From the NCBI GenBank assembly GCA_030631665.1, contig DAOVKU010000005.1, positions 1 through 32,782 of the forward strand: DNA of 32,782 nt. Direction: 5' to 3'. The notes below the pieces were generated by a model. It searched no databases and had not been told where the DNA came from. It saw nothing but the letters and a program-made list of their open reading frames with translations. Numbering within the stretch: position 1 is the first letter of the stretch; every line of letters starts with the position of its first letter. Shown in pieces: positions 2,290 to 26,275 of this stretch. The DNA comes from Candidatus Omnitrophota bacterium (lineage in GTDB: Bacteria > Omnitrophota > Gorgyraeia > DAOVKU01). The position numbers and the translations under genes were made by a program.

Positions 2290-2385
2290 GTTATATTTCA
2301 TAACATACATCTATATCTCTGCTCACCGGCACGCTGGTGGCAGGGATAACTTGTATTGTCGTTAATTAAAGGAGGTAAAAAAGAA

Positions 2386-2688
2386 ATGGCTCAACATCCA
2401 AGTTTGCGTTCAAGCAGTAAAAGCAAACAGCATCGCAGTGTTTTAAAAAGGTTTGAAAAAATAGAGATTTTAAAAAAGAAAGGATTGTGGGAAGAAGATA
2501 AAGATTCAGCTTTTGGCCTGCCAAAAGTAAAGGTGGTTCGATTTAAGGTAAAGAAGGAAAAGGCATCGGAAACAGCTGAGACAGCGCAGGCACAGACCGG
2601 AGAAGCAGCTGCCGGCACTGAACAAAAAACTCAAACTCAAGGTGAAAATAAGCAGCCGCAAAGCAAAAAGCAAGCTAAAAAAAGTTAA
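2386..2688 (+). CDS. Small basic protein (TIGR04137-like) with low-complexity C-terminal extension
   Basis: MAQHPSLRSSSKSKQHRSVLKRFEKIEILKKKGLW core; ATG at 2386 preceded by AAAGGAGG, so the track start at 2356 is too far upstream. Confidence 0.75.
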   Translation: MAQHPSLRSSSKSKQHRSVLKRFEKIEILKKKGLWEEDKDSAFGLPKVKVVRFKVKKEKASETAETAQAQTGEAAAGTEQKTQTQGENKQPQSKKQAKKS

Positions 2689-2785
2689 TCCTAAAGGATG
2701 CCCCCAAGGGGCACAGGTGGGCATAGATAGACCTTACTAATTCATCTTAAAGAAGGGTCTAATTTATGATAATCTTATTTAAAAA

Positions 2786-3754
2786 ATGAAACAGTTACGG
2801 TCAATTTTTTTTGCTTATTATTTATTAATGACTGGTATTCCATTTTTATCAATTGCAAGCGCCAGTCAGGGGGAAAATTTTTTTCTGGGCAAGATAATAA
2901 AAGACAATGTTGCTATTAGAAGCGGCTACAATAAAAATTTTAATCCTGTTCTTTTTTTAAATAAAGACGACCTTGTAATAATTTGTGGTAAGAATTTCTC
3001 CTGGTATAAAGTTATGCTTCCGCCAGACGCGGATTGTTACATTTGTGCTGATTTCGTAGAAGAGAACGGTAAAACCATGGGTTTTATTAAGGTAAACAAG
3101 CTGAATATTAGAGGGGGGCCAGATACCAAATTTGGCATAGTCGGACACTTAAAGAAGAACGATGAGGTTATTATTAAAAAAAGAGAAAGCGGCTGGTATA
3201 AAATTTTTCCCCCAGAAACCGCTTACGGCTGGATTTATGAAGATTATCTGTTCAATGCCGGCAGCGCCCAGGCCTTTCTTGAGGAAAGAAAACTTTTAAG
3301 TAAATTTGAAGAAAAATTTAGAAAACTTGAAAGAGATTATCAAGAATCTTTTTCTGCGCAAGATCAACTTCTTTCCCCGAAAGATGTTTTAAAAAAATTA
3401 GATTCTTTACTCGCAGAATATTCCAATTGCAAAGAAATTGTTGTCCGACTTCAAAAAAAGAAAGACATTATTTTAGAAAGAATAAAAAGTTTTAGTTTGG
3501 TAAGAGAAATTTCCCAGATAAGAGAACAAAATATAGTAGAGGCGGAAGGAAAAATACAGGACTTGGGGAAATTTTTAGGCAGAAGAGGTACTCATAAACT
3601 TATTAAAGATTCAAAGACCATTTTTTATCTCGAGAGCGAGGAGATAAACCTGGATATTTTTTCAAACTGCCGTGTTAGAGTTTGGGGTTTTATTGAAAGC
3701 GACCATCAGGCAAGCGAGCCACTGCTTAGAGTTGAAAAGTTAATTCTTAAATAA
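2786..3754 (+). CDS. Secreted protein with two bacterial SH3 domains
   Basis: Signal peptide; repeated NVAIRSGYNKNF...WYKV and KLNIRGGPDTKFGIVGHLKKNDEVIIKKRESGWYKI. Confidence 0.8.
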   Translation: MKQLRSIFFAYYLLMTGIPFLSIASASQGENFFLGKIIKDNVAIRSGYNKNFNPVLFLNKDDLVIICGKNFSWYKVMLPPDADCYICADFVEENGKTMGFIKVNKLNIRGGPDTKFGIVGHLKKNDEVIIKKRESGWYKIFPPETAYGWIYEDYLFNAGSAQAFLEERKLLSKFEEKFRKLERDYQESFSAQDQLLSPKDVLKKLDSLLAEYSNCKEIVVRLQKKKDIILERIKSFSLVREISQIREQNIVEAEGKIQDLGKFLGRRGTHKLIKDSKTIFYLESEEINLDIFSNCRVRVWGFIESDHQASEPLLRVEKLILK

Positions 3755-4931: not shown

Positions 4932-6026
4932 ATGAAAAAAATTACTCTCCATTTACCAGGCCGAAGCTATCCTATAGTTGTAACTGATTCTTTTTCTCTC
5001 TTGCCGCGTTATCTGAAGAAAGTTGACGCAGGCAACCATGCCTGTATTGTAACTAACTCAAAGATAAAACGACTATTTGCCGGGCAAATTACTGGCGCTT
5101 TAAAAAAAGCTGCTATAGATTCAGATTTTTTCCTTATCCAGGATACAGAAACAAGTAAGTCATTTGAGGTCGCTTGTCTTCTAATAGAGAAAATTCTAAA
5201 AATGGACAAAAGGAAGAAAATTTTTATAGTTGCCCTGGGCGGCGGGGTAGTGGGAGACCTGGCTGGTTTTGTAGCTTGCATTTATAAGCGCGGCGTGCCT
5301 TTTATACAGATACCCACAACTTTACTGGGGCAGGTCGATTCTTCCATTGGCGGTAAGGTGGCTGTTGATGTAAAAGAAGCTAAAAATATAATCGGTGCTT
5401 TCTATCAACCATGTCTTGTATATAGCAGCCTCGCCACTTTAGAGACGCTGCCTTTAATTGAAATTAGGGCCGGCCTGGCTGAAATCATAAAATATGCTGT
5501 GATAGGCGATAAAAATCTTTTTAAAACTTTAGAAAATAAAATGGAACTTTTATTAAACAGGCAGAAGAAAATTTTAGAGCAGGTAATCTTTATATGTGCC
5601 CGAATCAAATCTTTAATTGTGGAAGAGGATGAAAAAGAAAAGAAGGGCCTGAGGACTATTCTGAACTTTGGACATACTTTTGGCCATGCCATCGAAGCCG
5701 CTTGTGCTTATTCAAAGAAAGTTAGTCACGGACAGGCTATAGCCATTGGCATGTTGATGGCATGCGACCTGTCTGTTTCTTTAAGCCTGTGTTCTAATGA
5801 GACAGGCGAGCGCCTTGAGGCCATTATCAAGAGAGCCGGTTTGCCAACTCACATTGTGGGCCTGAAATTAAAAGATATTTTATCGGCCATGAAACATGAT
5901 AAAAAATTTATCCATGGAAAAAACAGGCTTGTTTTGCCTATTTCAATAGGTAAAGTAGGAATATTTGAGGACATAGATGAGAGAAAAATAAAAGCAGCCT
6001 GCCGAGCAAGAATTAAAAATGGTTAA
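4932..6026 (+). CDS. aroB: 3-dehydroquinate synthase
   Basis: GGGVVGDLAGFVACIYKRGVPFIQIPTTLLGQVDSSIGGKVAVD, NFGHTFGHAIE. Confidence 0.95.
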   Translation: MKKITLHLPGRSYPIVVTDSFSLLPRYLKKVDAGNHACIVTNSKIKRLFAGQITGALKKAAIDSDFFLIQDTETSKSFEVACLLIEKILKMDKRKKIFIVALGGGVVGDLAGFVACIYKRGVPFIQIPTTLLGQVDSSIGGKVAVDVKEAKNIIGAFYQPCLVYSSLATLETLPLIEIRAGLAEIIKYAVIGDKNLFKTLENKMELLLNRQKKILEQVIFICARIKSLIVEEDEKEKKGLRTILNFGHTFGHAIEAACAYSKKVSHGQAIAIGMLMACDLSVSLSLCSNETGERLEAIIKRAGLPTHIVGLKLKDILSAMKHDKKFIHGKNRLVLPISIGKVGIFEDIDERKIKAACRARIKNG

Positions 6027-6438
6027 AGAGATTTTCATTTCTTCGACTCAAAAGAGACAGTTTATCGATATAACAGATAAGGTTTTATCGCTGGTGAGAG
6101 AGAGCGGCATAGAAAGTGGGATATGTTTTTTATACGTTCCCCATACAACCGCCGCCATTACCATAAATGAAAATGCCGATCACAGTGTTCAAAAAGATAT
6201 TTTAAAAGAATTGGAAAAAATAGTACCTCTTGATGATAACTACAGCCATAGCGAAGGTAATGCGGCCGCCCATATTAAATCAACTCTTAGCGGTATCACC
6301 CAGTATTTTTTTATCCAGGACGGAGAAGCAAAGTTGGGCACCTGGCAGGGAATATTTTTTTGTGAGTTTGATGGGCCGCGCAGGAGGCAGGTTTTGGTTA
6401 ATGTTGTCAATGAAGACACAACTTACGAAGCGAAGTGA
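6019..6438 (+). CDS. YjbQ family protein (UPF0047, secondary thiamine-phosphate synthase family)
   Basis: FLYVPHTTAAITINENAD, NYSHSEGNAAAHIKSTLSG, LGTWQGIFFCEFDGPRRRQV. Confidence 0.9.
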   Translation: MVKEIFISSTQKRQFIDITDKVLSLVRESGIESGICFLYVPHTTAAITINENADHSVQKDILKELEKIVPLDDNYSHSEGNAAAHIKSTLSGITQYFFIQDGEAKLGTWQGIFFCEFDGPRRRQVLVNVVNEDTTYEAK

Positions 6439-6448
6439 GGTAAGTTGT
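6418..6448 (+). repeat. Inverted repeat ACAACTTAC / GTAAGTTGT spanning the yjbQ stop codon
   Basis: 9 bp perfect arms 6418-6426 and 6440-6448, 13 nt loop; resembles the element at 8754-8787. Confidence 0.65.
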
Positions 6449-6536
6449 CTGTCTGTCCCGAATGTAGTAGCCTGCAATAGTATTACTTCGGGATCCCGAA
6501 GAGATTCTTCGAAGAAACACCTCATTCGGGAAACCT

Positions 6537-6558
6537 ACCCCGAAGTTTCGGGGTTAAT
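6537..6558 (+). repeat. Dispersed palindromic repeat ACCCCGAAGTTTCGGGGTTAAT (copy 1)
   Basis: Near-identical (20/22) to 8801-8822. Confidence 0.7.
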
Positions 6559-6560
6559 TT

Positions 6561-6603
6561 GTACTTATCAGTTATGTTCACTTGCGTTCTATAACTGATG
6601 TAC
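6561..6603 (+). repeat. Hairpin leader upstream of the EF-Tu-like gene
   Basis: GTAC(TT)ATCAGTTAT ... ATAACTGATGTAC: long inverted repeat with a 2-nt bulge. Confidence 0.6.
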
Positions 6604-6625
6604 TCACTAAATGGGGGTGAAATTA

Positions 6626-6895
6626 ATGGAAGAAATAGGTAAAATCGTAGCTTATTTTAAGATACCGCAGGCAGCCATAATAAAAATTGAGAAGGGAACT
6701 CTGGCAGTGGGTGATTATGTGAGAATTAAAGGTCATACGACAGATTTTATCCAGAAAGTTGAGTCTATGGAGATTGAACATAAAGCTCTGAATAAAGCCA
6801 GCGCGTCTCAGGAAATAGGATTGAAGGTCAAAGAAAAAGTCAGAGAGCACGATCTAGTTTATAAACTGGAGCCATCCGAAATAGAGGAGGTTTGA
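6626..6895 (+). CDS. Standalone translation elongation factor (EF-Tu domain 2)-like protein
   Basis: MEEIGKIVAYFKIPQAAIIKIEKGTLAVGDYVRIKGHTTDFIQKVESMEIEHKAL...GLKVKEKVREHDLVYK; ATG 6626 follows GGGGGTG. Confidence 0.75.
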   Translation: MEEIGKIVAYFKIPQAAIIKIEKGTLAVGDYVRIKGHTTDFIQKVESMEIEHKALNKASASQEIGLKVKEKVREHDLVYKLEPSEIEEV

Positions 6896-6909
6896 AAAAA
6901 ATTTAACCT

Positions 6910-7368
6910 ATGGAAGTCAAGCCCTTTAAAGACAGCGAACAGGAAAAGATCAAAAATTTTATTACCTGGATTTTAGAAAAAGAGTTTACCATCAAAAGCG
7001 AGGAATACCCCGAACAGGATTTAGATAATTTAAAAAAAATTTATCGACAGCCAGGCTGTATTATGCTGATAGCCGAAGAAGAAGGACAGTTGATTGGAAC
7101 AGTGGCCGTTAAAGACGAAAACAGAGAAATTGCTTTAATCAGGCGACTTTTTATTCATCCCGCCTATCGTCGTAGAGGATTTGGTTTGGTTTTACTTGGC
7201 CGAGCTATAGATTTTTGTCGCTTAAATGGCTATAAACAAGTAATCTTTCGTGCTACTTCCGGTATGTCGTCTGCTATTTCTCTTTGTCTTAGACAAGGTT
7301 TTAAAGAAACGGAAAGAATGACCCTTGAAGGTTCTGAGGTGGTAGCCCTTCATTATTCTCTTACCTGA
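6910..7368 (+). CDS. GNAT family N-acetyltransferase
   Basis: RRLFIHPAYRRRGFGLVLLGRAIDFCR acetyl-CoA motif. Confidence 0.88.
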   Translation: MEVKPFKDSEQEKIKNFITWILEKEFTIKSEEYPEQDLDNLKKIYRQPGCIMLIAEEEGQLIGTVAVKDENREIALIRRLFIHPAYRRRGFGLVLLGRAIDFCRLNGYKQVIFRATSGMSSAISLCLRQGFKETERMTLEGSEVVALHYSLT

Positions 7369-19842: not shown

Positions 19843-20328
19843 ATGCCTAAACAAAATAACAGGAGCAAGTTTGTTGTGCAAAAACACCAGGCCAGCCACC
19901 TTCATTATGATTTTCGAATGAAAATAAAAGGTGTTTTAAAAAGTTGGGCCATACCAAAAGGCCCTTCGATGAACCCCCAGGAAAAGCGGCTGGCAGTAGC
20001 TGTTGAGGACCACCCTTTAAGCTATATTAACTTTGAAGGTATCATTCCTGAGGGTGAATATGGCGCTGGTGCAGTCTTAGTCTGGGATTTAGGAAAATAC
20101 AAAACAATAGGAGAGGATGGCATAGAAAAGCAATATAAAAATGGCAAAATGAAATTTAATCTTGAAGGCAAAAAACTTAAAGGCGGTTTTGCATTAATTC
20201 AAACTAAAATAGGTGGCAAAGATAAGAACTGGCTTTTGATTAAAGAAAAAGACAGATATGCCTTAAAAAAAGACATTTTAAAAGAAGAAAAATCTGTTAA
20301 AAGCGGAAGAAAAATAAAAGATTTGTAA
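19843..20328 (+). CDS. Standalone LigD-type 3'-phosphoesterase domain protein
   Basis: FVVQKHQASHLHYDFRMKIKGVLKSWAIPKGPSMNPQEKRLAVAVEDHPLSYINFEGIIPEGEYGAGAVLVWD. Confidence 0.9.
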   Translation: MPKQNNRSKFVVQKHQASHLHYDFRMKIKGVLKSWAIPKGPSMNPQEKRLAVAVEDHPLSYINFEGIIPEGEYGAGAVLVWDLGKYKTIGEDGIEKQYKNGKMKFNLEGKKLKGGFALIQTKIGGKDKNWLLIKEKDRYALKKDILKEEKSVKSGRKIKDL

Positions 20329-22282: not shown

Positions 22283-22672
22283 ATGGCGAAGAAAAAGAAG
22301 AAAAAAGAGGAAAGAAATATCTGTCTTGAAAAATGCGATGCCGCCTGTTGCAAGAATCTGGCTATGGATATCCTGAAGCCTAAAGATAACTGGGATATAG
22401 AAGATTTAAAATGGAAGCTTTATTTTAAACATGTAAAAGTTTATATTGTCAATAATAGATGGCATCTTTTATTTGAAACTAAATGCAGGTATTTATTAAA
22501 GAATAATAGATGCAGTATCTATGAAAGGCGCCCTGAAGTTTGCAGGGAACATAGTCATATGGAATGTGGTGAGCGAGAAGGTGACTGGTACGATCTCCTC
22601 ATCTCCACTCCTGAAGAATTGGATGAGTATTTCAGAAAGGAGAAGAGGAAGAAAAAGAAAAGAAAGAAGTAG
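22283..22672 (+). CDS. YkgJ-like Cys-cluster protein with Lys-rich termini
   Basis: CLEKCDAACCKNL ... CRYLLKNNRCSIYERRPEVCREH. Confidence 0.7.
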   Translation: MAKKKKKKEERNICLEKCDAACCKNLAMDILKPKDNWDIEDLKWKLYFKHVKVYIVNNRWHLLFETKCRYLLKNNRCSIYERRPEVCREHSHMECGEREGDWYDLLISTPEELDEYFRKEKRKKKKRKK

Positions 22673-22771
22673 GTATTTTTGTATGTGGAAGATATGTTAA
22701 GAGTCCGTGAAATCCACGCTAAATCCATCCTTAATAAATCAAAACTCTCCGGTTTTACCTTAAATTGCTAC
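22666..22771 (+). pseudogene. Truncated 5' copy of the SPL-like radical SAM gene (left direct repeat)
   Basis: 22694-22771 matches 24040-24117 at 73/78 nt; encodes MLRVREIHAKSILNKSKLSGFTLNCY then diverges (NVSF stop). Confidence 0.88.
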
Positions 22772-22795
22772 AATGTAAGTTTTTAAGACAAATAC

Positions 22796-22824
22796 TTGAC
22801 AGATTTTATTACATATGCTATAAT
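22796..22824 (+). promoter_or_regulatory. Consensus sigma70 promoter of the TA module
   Basis: TTGACA, 17 nt spacer, TATAAT. Confidence 0.8.
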
Positions 22825-22853
22825 TATAATAATTCTAGAAGGAGAGATGTAAA

Positions 22854-23651
22854 ATGGCAGATATCTTTTATAAAAAATTAGGTATGCGAATTAAGGCTCT
22901 AAGAGAACAAGTTGGATATTCACAGGAGAAATTAGCCGCTTTACTTAAAATCAGCAGAGTTTCACTATCTCAAATTGAAACCGGAGATAGAAAAATAAGC
23001 GCCGGAGAAGTAGTGGAGCTTTCAAACATATTCAACATTGCTTCAGATATTTTGCTTGATTTAAAAAAGGATATAAAAGTGGTTTTAGGAAAAACAAACA
23101 AACCTAAAAAAACAAAACCGGAAATTCGCATTAACGTACCGCAAAAGAACTTAGATAAGTTTAAAGAAGTTTTGCTCTATATTCTTAATAAAGTGGGTTC
23201 AAAGCCGAATATAGGCGAGTCTGTATTATATAAGCTGCTTTATTTTATCGATTTTAATTATTATGAAAAATACGAAGAACAGTTTATAGGCGCAACCTAT
23301 ATAAAAAACAATTACGGTCCGACCCCCAGAGAATTTATAAAAATAATTGATGAAATGGAGGCCAAAAGAGAGATAGTTAAAGTTAAAGATAAATATTTTC
23401 AGTACCCTCAGAGAAAATATCTTCCCTTAAAAACGCCTGATTTATCTAAATTAAAAGCTAATGAATTAAAAATAATTGATGATGTATTAGATAAGCTTTC
23501 TGATATGAATGCTGCTGAAATCAGTAAATATTCTCATAACGATATTCCTTGGTTGGCTGCAGATAAGGGCCAGGCAATAGATTATGAGTCTGTTTTTTAT
23601 CGAGAATTTCCATATTCAGTAAGGACGTATAGTGACAAAGATTTTTCATGA
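22854..23651 (+). CDS. Antitoxin: XRE HTH fused to Panacea (DUF4065) domain
   Basis: RIKALREQVGYSQEKLAALLKISRVSLSQIETGDRKIS HTH; LYKLLYFIDFNYYEKYEEQFIGATYIKNNYGPTPREF DUF4065 signature. Confidence 0.82.
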   Translation: MADIFYKKLGMRIKALREQVGYSQEKLAALLKISRVSLSQIETGDRKISAGEVVELSNIFNIASDILLDLKKDIKVVLGKTNKPKKTKPEIRINVPQKNLDKFKEVLLYILNKVGSKPNIGESVLYKLLYFIDFNYYEKYEEQFIGATYIKNNYGPTPREFIKIIDEMEAKREIVKVKDKYFQYPQRKYLPLKTPDLSKLKANELKIIDDVLDKLSDMNAAEISKYSHNDIPWLAADKGQAIDYESVFYREFPYSVRTYSDKDFS

Positions 23652-24012
23652 TATACGATACCTCCCTGAATTTAGGCATGATCTAAAGAAGCTTTTAAAG
23701 AAATATTCAACGCTCGAAGATGATATAAACACGTTTATTAATACGGTATTAAAGCTCTACCATAAAGAAAAAGTTTCTCTTAGCGCTGTTGTGCAAATTT
23801 CGAATCTTGGTATCCATTCACCTTTACTATATAAAGTTCGAAAATTTACGTGTAAATCATTGAAGGGTAGGGGTGTTGCAAGTGGTATAAGAATAATTTA
23901 TGCCTATTTTAAAAACGAAGATCGCGTAGAATTTATTGAGATTTACTATAAAGGCGATAAGAAAAACGAAGACAGGGAAAGAATTCTAACGCGCTATAGT
24001 AAAGGAAGTTAA
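23632..24012 (+). CDS. RelE/ParE-like toxin
   Basis: FRHDLKKLLKKYSTLEDDINTFI ... SGIRIIYAYFKNEDRVEFIEIYYKGDKKNEDRERI; GTG start overlapping the antitoxin by 20 nt. Confidence 0.72.
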   Translation: MTKIFHDIRYLPEFRHDLKKLLKKYSTLEDDINTFINTVLKLYHKEKVSLSAVVQISNLGIHSPLLYKVRKFTCKSLKGRGVASGIRIIYAYFKNEDRVEFIEIYYKGDKKNEDRERILTRYSKGS

Positions 24013-24117
24013 TAAGTAGGCTTCTTGTGTGTGAAGGATATGCTAAAAGTCCGTGAAATCCACGCTAAATCCGTCCTTAATAAATCAAAACTCTCCGATT
24101 TTACCTTAAACTGCTAC
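24013..24117 (+). repeat. Right direct repeat flanking the TA module (5' end of the SPL-like gene)
   Basis: Matches 22666-22771 at an offset of ~1346 bp over the coding part. Confidence 0.85.
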
Positions 24118-24870
24118 GTTGGTTGTTCTCACCGTTGTCTTTATTGTTATGCCCGTTACATGAAAAAATTCAAAGAAAGGCCCGAAGATTGGGGTGAATT
24201 TGTGGATGTTAAGATAAACGCCCCTGAAGTGTTAAAAAAAGATATTAAAAGAATAAAGCTGCCTAAAGAAGTATATATGAGTACTGTCTGTGATGGTTGG
24301 CAGCCTTTAGAAGAAAAATATAAGCTTTCAAGAGCCTGCCTAAGAATACTTTTAGAGGCGGGCTTTAATATGTCCATACTTACCAAAAGTAGCCTTATTA
24401 GGCGTGATTTTGACCTGTTAGAGGCCCATAATAAGCAAGTTAGCCTGGGTATGACTATTACCACCTTAAATACAGAGCTTAAAAGGCTCTTAGAGCCTGG
24501 AGCTTCAGAGCCGCAAGAGCGCATAGACACTCTTAAAGAAGCCCGGCAAAAAGGCATAGAAATCTATGTCTTTTTAGGGCCGTTAATGCCGGAATTTACT
24601 GATACGCAGTCTAATTTAGAGGAAATTTTTAGTGCTTTAAAAAGTCTTGAGTTAGACAGAATCTATATTGACAGGTTAAATCCTCGCTGGGGCGTTCTGG
24701 AGAGCTTAAAAAAAGGACTTGAGGGAGTAGGAGGAGAGAGGGTTAGGTTATTGGTAGATAGTTATACCAATGATGGTAATTACCGCAATTATAGCCATAA
24801 ATTAAGATATAATGCTACTAAGTTTGCTTCTCAGTTTGGTTTGGCGGATAGGGTTAGGTTTTGTTTTTAA
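24040..24870 (+). CDS. SPL-family radical SAM protein
   Basis: CYVGCSHRCLYCYARYM (CxxxCxxC), TVCDGWQPLEEKYKLSR, LTKSSLIRRDFDLL; the track start 24025 is an upstream TTG. Confidence 0.85.
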   Translation: MLKVREIHAKSVLNKSKLSDFTLNCYVGCSHRCLYCYARYMKKFKERPEDWGEFVDVKINAPEVLKKDIKRIKLPKEVYMSTVCDGWQPLEEKYKLSRACLRILLEAGFNMSILTKSSLIRRDFDLLEAHNKQVSLGMTITTLNTELKRLLEPGASEPQERIDTLKEARQKGIEIYVFLGPLMPEFTDTQSNLEEIFSALKSLELDRIYIDRLNPRWGVLESLKKGLEGVGGERVRLLVDSYTNDGNYRNYSHKLRYNATKFASQFGLADRVRFCF

Positions 24871-24937: not shown

Positions 24938-26275
24938 ATGAAAAAATTTAATAAAGATTGCACAACTTGTAAAGATTATATCGATTTCGTTATGCCAAAC
25001 GAGGTTATCAATGAAATTCATGGCGTAGTTTTATTTATTGGCGCAGGTGTTAGTACGGAAACCAAAAGAGTATTTCCTGATACTTTATATGAAAATATTT
25101 TAGAAGAGCTAGATTTGAAACACAATAATAGACCCTCGTTTTCTAAAGTCATGGGTTTGTATGTTAAAAAATGTGGTAGCAGAGCACCTTTAATGAGTAA
25201 AATTAAGGAAAGACTTGATTATTTTAAAGCATGGCCTGAATTATATAATCGAGCTACTGAATTTCATCAAGAAATTACCCTGTTTCCTTGTATTGAGCAG
25301 TTTGTTACTACTAACTGGGATGATTTTTTAGAGAATGAAGCTAAAGCGATGCCATTTGTCCATTCTAAAGACATACCTTTTTGGGATACCCCAGGTAAAA
25401 AAGTTTTAAAGATTCATGGTTCAATTAACGACTTTGGTTCAATTGTTGCAACAGAAGAAGATTATAAAAAATGCTATCGCGAACTGACTAAAAATACTAT
25501 TGGAAGTAAATTAAAGTTATTCTTGGCTCAAAATATTATTATTTTTATTGGCTATTCGTTTCAAGATGAGGACTTTCAAAGAATATACAAATATATTTCT
25601 AGAACAATGAGCGATTTCAAAAGACAAGCTTATATTATTACACTAGATAAATCAAATGAAAAACAATGGAAAAAATATAAACTGACACCTATTTATACTG
25701 AAGGTAGTTATTTTATTTATAAATTACGTAAAATTTTTGAACAAAGAAAATGTTTATTGCCTTTCAAAAATTTATCAAAAGTATTAAGAATACAAAAATA
25801 CATAACAAATGTGCATGATAAAACTTCAAGAAAATATAAACACACAAAATTTCCTGAAATTATTTATTGTCTCTCATATCAGGATGGCATTCTTCATGCT
25901 TTTCAATATCTAATAAATAAAATCAAAGGAGGGCCTTCTTTATGCACGAAATATTTATTAGATTCGATTAATACATATGAGAAACTTGTGAATAAATATA
26001 AGAAGAATTGGCTTGATCATTCTTATTTGGAAGGGTACTTAACAGGGCTATATCTATTTAATGGAGCCATGTTTCCTGATATTAAATTAAAGCATATTCC
26101 GATATTTTGCTATTACAATGAAGTTGATAATGAAAAATTTATGACCGAAAAAAAATTTGAAAAATCATTAAAATTTACGAAGATAAATAGCAGGAAAAGA
26201 CAAGACGCAAAGAAATTTATTGAGAAATTAAATATAGGTGATTCGGCCGTTTTCCATCATATTCCACGAATATAA
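24938..26275 (+). CDS. SIR2-domain protein (candidate NADase-type defence protein)
   Basis: VVLFIGAGVSTE, FVTTNWDDFLE, VLKIHGSI, IIFIGYSFQDEDFQRI; C-terminal ~180 aa not assigned. Confidence 0.8.
   Translation: MKKFNKDCTTCKDYIDFVMPNEVINEIHGVVLFIGAGVSTETKRVFPDTLYENILEELDLKHNNRPSFSKVMGLYVKKCGSRAPLMSKIKERLDYFKAWPELYNRATEFHQEITLFPCIEQFVTTNWDDFLENEAKAMPFVHSKDIPFWDTPGKKVLKIHGSINDFGSIVATEEDYKKCYRELTKNTIGSKLKLFLAQNIIIFIGYSFQDEDFQRIYKYISRTMSDFKRQAYIITLDKSNEKQWKKYKLTPIYTEGSYFIYKLRKIFEQRKCLLPFKNLSKVLRIQKYITNVHDKTSRKYKHTKFPEIIYCLSYQDGILHAFQYLINKIKGGPSLCTKYLLDSINTYEKLVNKYKKNWLDHSYLEGYLTGLYLFNGAMFPDIKLKHIPIFCYYNEVDNEKFMTEKKFEKSLKFTKINSRKRQDAKKFIEKLNIGDSAVFHHIPRI

Follow-up and report, generated by a model that had tools for sequence, protein, structure and literature searches.

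A predicted toxin–antitoxin (TA) cassette in an uncultured member of the Omnitrophota probably entered a once-continuous junction between a ykgJ-like gene and a radical-SAM gene, with about 104 bp of the target duplicated in place. The window, by which we mean the whole 32,782-nucleotide (nt) stretch of DNA that was analysed, is contig C104 of a 1.53-Mb metagenome bin comprising 128 contigs, with 93% completeness and 6% contamination. The sequence-only reading of this DNA had taken the TA unit for an insertion, and our analysis agrees: the borders of the unit coincide with the ends of two direct repeats, and the genome has another TA pair, unrelated to the first, with a bracket of the same kind at a junction that is uninterrupted in relatives. 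The features of both loci are listed in Table 1.

Table 1 Features of the two bracketed TA pairs (window positions unless contig C10 is named)
Feature	Position	Strand	Remarks
ykgJ-like CxxCxxCC protein, intact upstream neighbour	22283..22672	+	PF03692 1.7e-9; stop codon inside left repeat
Left copy of the proposed target duplication	22668..22771	+	ykgJ end, leader and first 26 radical-SAM codons, then stop
Inserted TA cassette (predicted)	22772..24013	+	about 1241 bp, without recombinase; GC 0.31 versus 0.385 in the radical-SAM gene
Conserved cassette left end, AATGTAAnnTTTTnnnnACAA	22772..22804	+	from alignment of cassette promoter regions
Promoter, TTGACA-N17-TATAAT	22805..22833	+	−35 box and TTACATATG spacer conserved across cassettes
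Predicted antitoxin PanA, HTH_3 and SocA_Panacea/DUF4065	22854..23651	+	PF13274 2.4e-19, PF01381 1.1e-13
Putative RelE/HigB-superfamily toxin, 126 aa	23632..24012	+	overlaps panA by 20 nt; weak profile match
Right copy of the proposed target duplication	24014..24117	+	includes start of intact radical-SAM gene
Intact radical-SAM gene, Rv2578c/PA0069/rSAM_mob_pairB-like	24025..24870	+	ATG at 24040; PF04055 6.8e-16
lplA|lipA junction copies on C10 (L145)	2033-2106 and 2896-2969		74 nt, 92%
Phd-type antitoxin on C10 (L145)	2329-2601		
ParE/RelE-type toxin on C10 (L145)	2585-2866		

The repeats around the cassette are direct and match at 91% over 96 nt without gaps (22676–22771 and 24022–24117, spacing 1346); within their 78-nt coding core (22694–22771 and 24040–24117), the five differences are all transitions. 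A gapped match extends the similarity to about 104–118 nt, up to the AAGTAGG that opens both copies, and TGCTAC closes both. The AAGTAGG contains the ykgJ stop codon in the left copy and lies just past the toxin stop codon in the right copy. The match scores 84 against a maximum of 24 in shuffled sequence, none of 200 Markov shuffles of both flanks reaching 84, and the 1.10 Mb of the genome examined contains no further copy of the repeat. On the left, the repeat forms an open frame (MLRVREIHAKSILNKSKLSGFTLNCY...) ending in a stop codon; on the right, it supplies the start of the intact radical-SAM gene. The sequence-only reading had described the repeats in these terms, from the transitions in the core and the weaker upstream similarity through AAGTAGG to the preceding stop codons, to the short, terminated frame on the left, and all of this was reproduced. 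Three of the five core differences are non-synonymous, and one of these affects a residue that relatives conserve; the left copy encodes G where the aligned Omnitrophota relatives have D.

A domain search identifies the inserted unit as a TA pair and not a restriction-modification system. By its domains and gene pairing, it is predicted to be of PanAT type: the Panacea/DUF4065 antitoxin domain is present, and panA is paired with the 126-aa toxin gene in a conserved two-gene unit found in about 23 related cassettes. The conserved left end has a TGTAA and the promoter spacer a TTACA, possibly the two half-sites of an operator. The consensus promoter, the HTH/DUF4065 antitoxin and the overlapping second gene are all as previously noted from the sequence. 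The accompanying claim of a RelE-like toxin is retained as a putative assignment, on the basis of gene position, a conserved family motif (KGxG...SGIRxIY...IEIYYKGDKxNED) and a weak match of the family profile to HigB2/RelE-fold toxins (E 0.04); the toxin matches no model in Pfam, NCBIfam or PADLOC, and its single-sequence structure model (pLDDT 39) is not usable. No recombinase was found among the open reading frames or by domain search in the cassette or the window, as the earlier reading had also proposed for the unit.

The gene downstream of the cassette had been called SPL-like. We reject its identity as a spore photoproduct lyase (TIGR04070, 17.1 bits versus a cut-off of 400, E 0.002), since the Rv2578c, PA0069 and rSAM_mob_pairB models fit far better, with E values of 1e-44 to 5e-37, all with scores below their cut-offs. 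Relatives of this gene in other Omnitrophota are 60–66% identical, and each has one N-terminus and no TA pair; close relatives are single-copy. In distant relatives, ykgJ is not adjacent to the radical-SAM gene. Directly after the radical-SAM gene, at 24938–26275, the window encodes a SIR2-like protein (PF13289; ThsA/PDC-S25-like in PADLOC), probably a defence gene beside the TA pair. About 2.3 kb upstream of the insertion, at 19843–20328, lies a gene for a stand-alone LigD 3′-phosphoesterase (PF13298, 5e-44).

Of about 460 Omnitrophota genomes, about 30 encode relatives of panA (E ≤ 1e-40), which occur sporadically at unrelated loci in various families and classes, with identity of up to 77% in another class. 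Searches of phage, plasmid and viral collections returned weak Panacea-domain matches in four phage records and none in plasmids or viral contigs. To place the ends of the unit, about 25 other cassettes from Omnitrophota were compared. The DNA that the window shares with six of them (G011, G047a, G047b, G252, G263 and G282) begins at 22772/22773, the first base past the left repeat, and pairs of cassettes excluding the window have nearly the same left border, at a conserved AATGTAA that precedes the −35 box by about 24–30 bp. At the other end, the cassettes of G087 and G131, which are 86% identical, lose similarity 3 nt past the toxin stop codon. Because of where the shared DNA starts and where this similarity is lost, the unit runs from the operator-like end to the toxin stop, and the insert in the window is that unit plus almost nothing else, with the caveat that the mapped borders coincide with the functional limits of the module.

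Most other panA cassettes have no bracket, as expected if old duplications decay. The cassette of genome G047 lies between 50-nt repeats of 90% identity, with no further full-length copies in that genome; at this locus (L070, G047:C7, 5987–7509), the toxin is deleted to its C-terminal tail and panA is a solitary antitoxin. Contig ends truncate, or come within 700 bp of, about 12 of 29 panA cassettes (G057, G100, G114, G213, G131, G263, G316, G248, G348, G002, G085 and G416), above the expectation from contig numbers, an excess that may reflect strain variation or border repeats. Just downstream of another panA cassette (L068, G160:C39, 2113–4137), identical 71-nt direct repeats flank a 501-aa gene, which we take to be a putative transposase. 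Two further candidate brackets were rejected, a 27-nt repeat at chance level (L045/G218) and a repeat formed by two response-regulator genes (L051/G316).

The second bracket, on contig C10 of the same genome, encloses a Phd and ParE/RelE pair that is not related to the TA pair of the window. Its left copy comprises the end of an intact lplA and a dead lipA 5′ end, the lplA stop and lipA start overlapping by 35 nt, and its right copy starts the intact lipA. Both genes are found at 27 of 29 class-level relative loci, spaced −53 to +251 nt apart, with a TA between them in 0 of the 27; many overlap by −35/−38, most are within about 40 nt, and the two widest gaps (162 and 251 nt) hold only short repeats. 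The empty site is thus seen in relatives at the level of gene order, and because both genes are adjacent or overlapping there without a TA, the junction on C10 must, by this comparison, have been continuous originally. Overlapping genes accept an insertion without loss only if the overlap is duplicated, and the C10 overlap is duplicated. In the right copy, five of six changes are non-synonymous in the abandoned lplA frame, with only synonymous change in the lipA frame, which suggests that this copy diverged after losing its lplA role.

On C10, the left copy and the antitoxin gene are separated by a stretch containing a GGGGACA...TGTCCCC palindrome. In G394, a genome of another family, a C10-type Phd–RelE pair with 89.8% nucleotide identity is located downstream of lplA (L241, 1–2300), compared with about 64–68% identity between the host genes of the two genomes. 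There, a putative RAYT-type transposase, recognized by eye and with GGGGACAGGCTACTTT ends, truncates lplA beside the TA pair, and the contig ends in the toxin gene. In G134, a congener of G394, lplA and lipA are in direct contact.

A scan of 1170 ORF ends yielded few non-paralogous gene-end brackets, two of which hold TA pairs; it covered the same 1.10 Mb, made up of the window and contigs up to C100, some of those longer than 20 kb being included without their ends. No bracket has identical copies, and searches with both toxins and the Phd antitoxin revealed no third bracketed TA pair. Repeat length differs by site (104 nt in the window, 74 nt on C10, 50 nt in G047), the window and C10 brackets share no core sequence, and each of their repeats has two copies only.

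Other arrangements were observed in the scan. In a polysaccharide cluster (L189, G000:C54, 1563–4640), an FkbM methyltransferase gene is located between 155-nt, 88% identical copies of a GHMP kinase 3′ end; the differences at this non-TA bracket, nine synonymous versus two non-synonymous, fit allelic import rather than in-place duplication. At the same locus, two dead GT2-like 5′ ends (MNNLxFASIVVPVY) flank an ABC transporter, in nested insertions. At L190 (G000:C55, 590–3213), three inserted genes are flanked by a 39-nt, 90% repeat, with a small gene (MNKEFLQKTIDFWQPYSEEKL) intact on their downstream side and represented on the upstream side by a dead 5′ copy. Candidates at L151, L152, L158, L199 (galT), L204, L212 and L214 proved to be tandem paralogs or within-gene repeats, and the TGTGCGAGGTTAAGCCTCGCACA and GGGGACA families are dispersed repeats.

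The end product is what we observe: a cassette with mapped borders between two repeats, a TA family recurring at unrelated loci, and a second bracket whose junction is empty in relatives. For the route to it, we propose that a compact TA fragment, consisting of operator and promoter, panA and toxin and ending at the toxin stop codon, arrived at a ykgJ|radical-SAM junction that was at first continuous. The fragment would have been caught at a staggered break with fill-in, or by an equivalent illegitimate duplicative recombination, and the fill-in would have doubled about 104 bp, comprising the ykgJ end, the leader and the first 78 nt of the radical-SAM gene. Neither gene would be broken, as the left copy would preserve the native end of ykgJ and the right copy the native start of the radical-SAM gene. 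The remainder of the left copy, a dead 5′ fragment, would be left to drift, and the insertion may have been retained by addiction, in which loss of the TA is punished, together with the lack of harm to its neighbours. Crossing over between the repeats would be expected to delete the cassette cleanly. The empty ykgJ|radical-SAM allele is one that we infer, the genomes compared sharing the class at closest and none of them the genus, family or order. A Ku gene was not found in the 93%-complete genome; its absence disfavours classical end joining and so weakens that route, although the LigD 3′-phosphoesterase gene is nearby.

A rather improbable alternative is homeologous import, in which a related strain supplied the TA pair with a radical-SAM 5′ end through homologous recombination within the radical-SAM gene on the right and illegitimate recombination on the left, the two copies being the native and donor alleles. 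The copies in the window, about 90% identical and not identical, would suit such an origin, and the predominance of synonymous differences at L189 is what two functional alleles would show. The TA brackets point the other way: the changes in the C10 right copy fall in the lplA frame, after it lost its role, and the window core has mostly non-synonymous changes, including the one at a conserved position. These changes on C10, and the G for D in the left radical-SAM copy, support in-place duplication followed by unequal constraint. Import also merely shifts the question to how the TA pair first arrived.

The sequence-only reading had favoured an att-like or homologous landing pad, with a replacement 5′ end brought in by the module. 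Site-specific integration of this kind, in which the repeats would be attL and attR, the integrase would act in trans and the element would have carried the 5′ end of the gene, is in our judgement unlikely. Its best case is in G087, where a panA cassette (L078, around 5600–7030) is directly downstream of an intact tmRNA gene, a classic integrase target, and a 19/21-nt copy of the tmRNA 3′ end follows just after the toxin. The match is short (score 17 versus a shuffle maximum of 16 in 200 shuffles) and gives weak grounds for an att route in some panA members. In the genome of the window, the only tyrosine recombinases are a XerC-like protein and one other (C119 and C66), in addition to the lack of a recombinase in the cassette and window. 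The two brackets have no common core, and the repeats show no attC-like hairpin, their folding z-scores of 0.47, −0.25, 0.36 and −0.22 being negative for such a fold. Furthermore, the right copy also contains the end of the upstream gene, AAGTAGG in the window and the lplA 3′ end on C10, as expected if the whole junction was duplicated in place.

Tandem duplication of the radical-SAM gene, with the TA pair later replacing most of the first copy, would account for a left copy that is the 5′ end of the same gene, and an ancient duplication with TA genes always between the copies had been named as what would overturn the insertion; we consider it very unlikely, as the left copy stops exactly at the cassette start with no further first-copy remnant seen, relatives of the gene are single with one N-terminus and no TA, and the C10 repeat is an overlap of two genes, not part of one. 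An assembly artefact, for which the fragmentation into 128 contigs and the 6% contamination might speak, can be set aside almost entirely: with about 9% of positions differing between the copies, there is no identical repeat to mis-join, the two cases are independent, and the TA family has the same borders in other bins.

In-place duplication of the target therefore remains our preferred account, and two unrelated TA pairs with the same bracket suggest that TA pairs enter tight operons without a recombinase of their own, leaving the neighbours unbroken. Whether recombinase-free TA cassettes generally share this route into tight operon junctions, possibly with preferred sites, as the Phd–RelE pair near lplA in G394 might hint, is a more speculative proposal, which we hold only tentatively. 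TA modules are commonly regarded as mobile. Here, two independent TA units have left the same scar; for one, the borders are placed to the base, and for the other, the ancestral junction is seen empty. The scar explains how an insertion among overlapping operon genes can be harmless, as the duplicated junction restores both. Moreover, a copied gene end lying upstream of a TA pair is a simple signature, and its occurrences can be counted across complete genomes that are closely related. Insertion with long target duplication was reportedly described for restriction-modification genes by Nobusato et al. in 2000 and Furuta et al. in 2010, and the pattern is now extended to TA genes.

Several known systems resemble these loci in part. 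As in elements that integrate at tRNA or tmRNA genes, a gene end is duplicated at both borders, which is also the arrangement in G087, but there is no integrase, and a 104-nt operon-junction duplication takes the place of a short core. Like integron TA cassettes, the TA unit in the window is compact and has repeats of about 100 bp on either side; unlike theirs, these repeats are coding sequence of a conserved protein without an attC fold, and no integron integrase is present at the locus. The HTH and Panacea/DUF4065 antitoxin with a small toxin gene is shared with PanAT systems (PMC8832971), whereas the toxin branch is one that Pfam, NCBIfam and PADLOC do not recognize; direct repeats around PanAT loci are not mentioned in the PanAT paper (PMC8832971). 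In the papers cited here, insertion with long target duplication emerged from comparison of two Helicobacter pylori genomes, often involved restriction-modification genes, and produced duplications of variable length, on the order of 100 bp, without a linked mobile element (PMC3874152, PMC3031569, PMC1643837). The TA units share with these restriction-modification units an addiction-type character, the lack of a recombinase and a long, variable target repeat at both borders, and differ in being type II TA pairs, in uncultured Omnitrophota, at tight or overlapping operon junctions where both genes remain intact.
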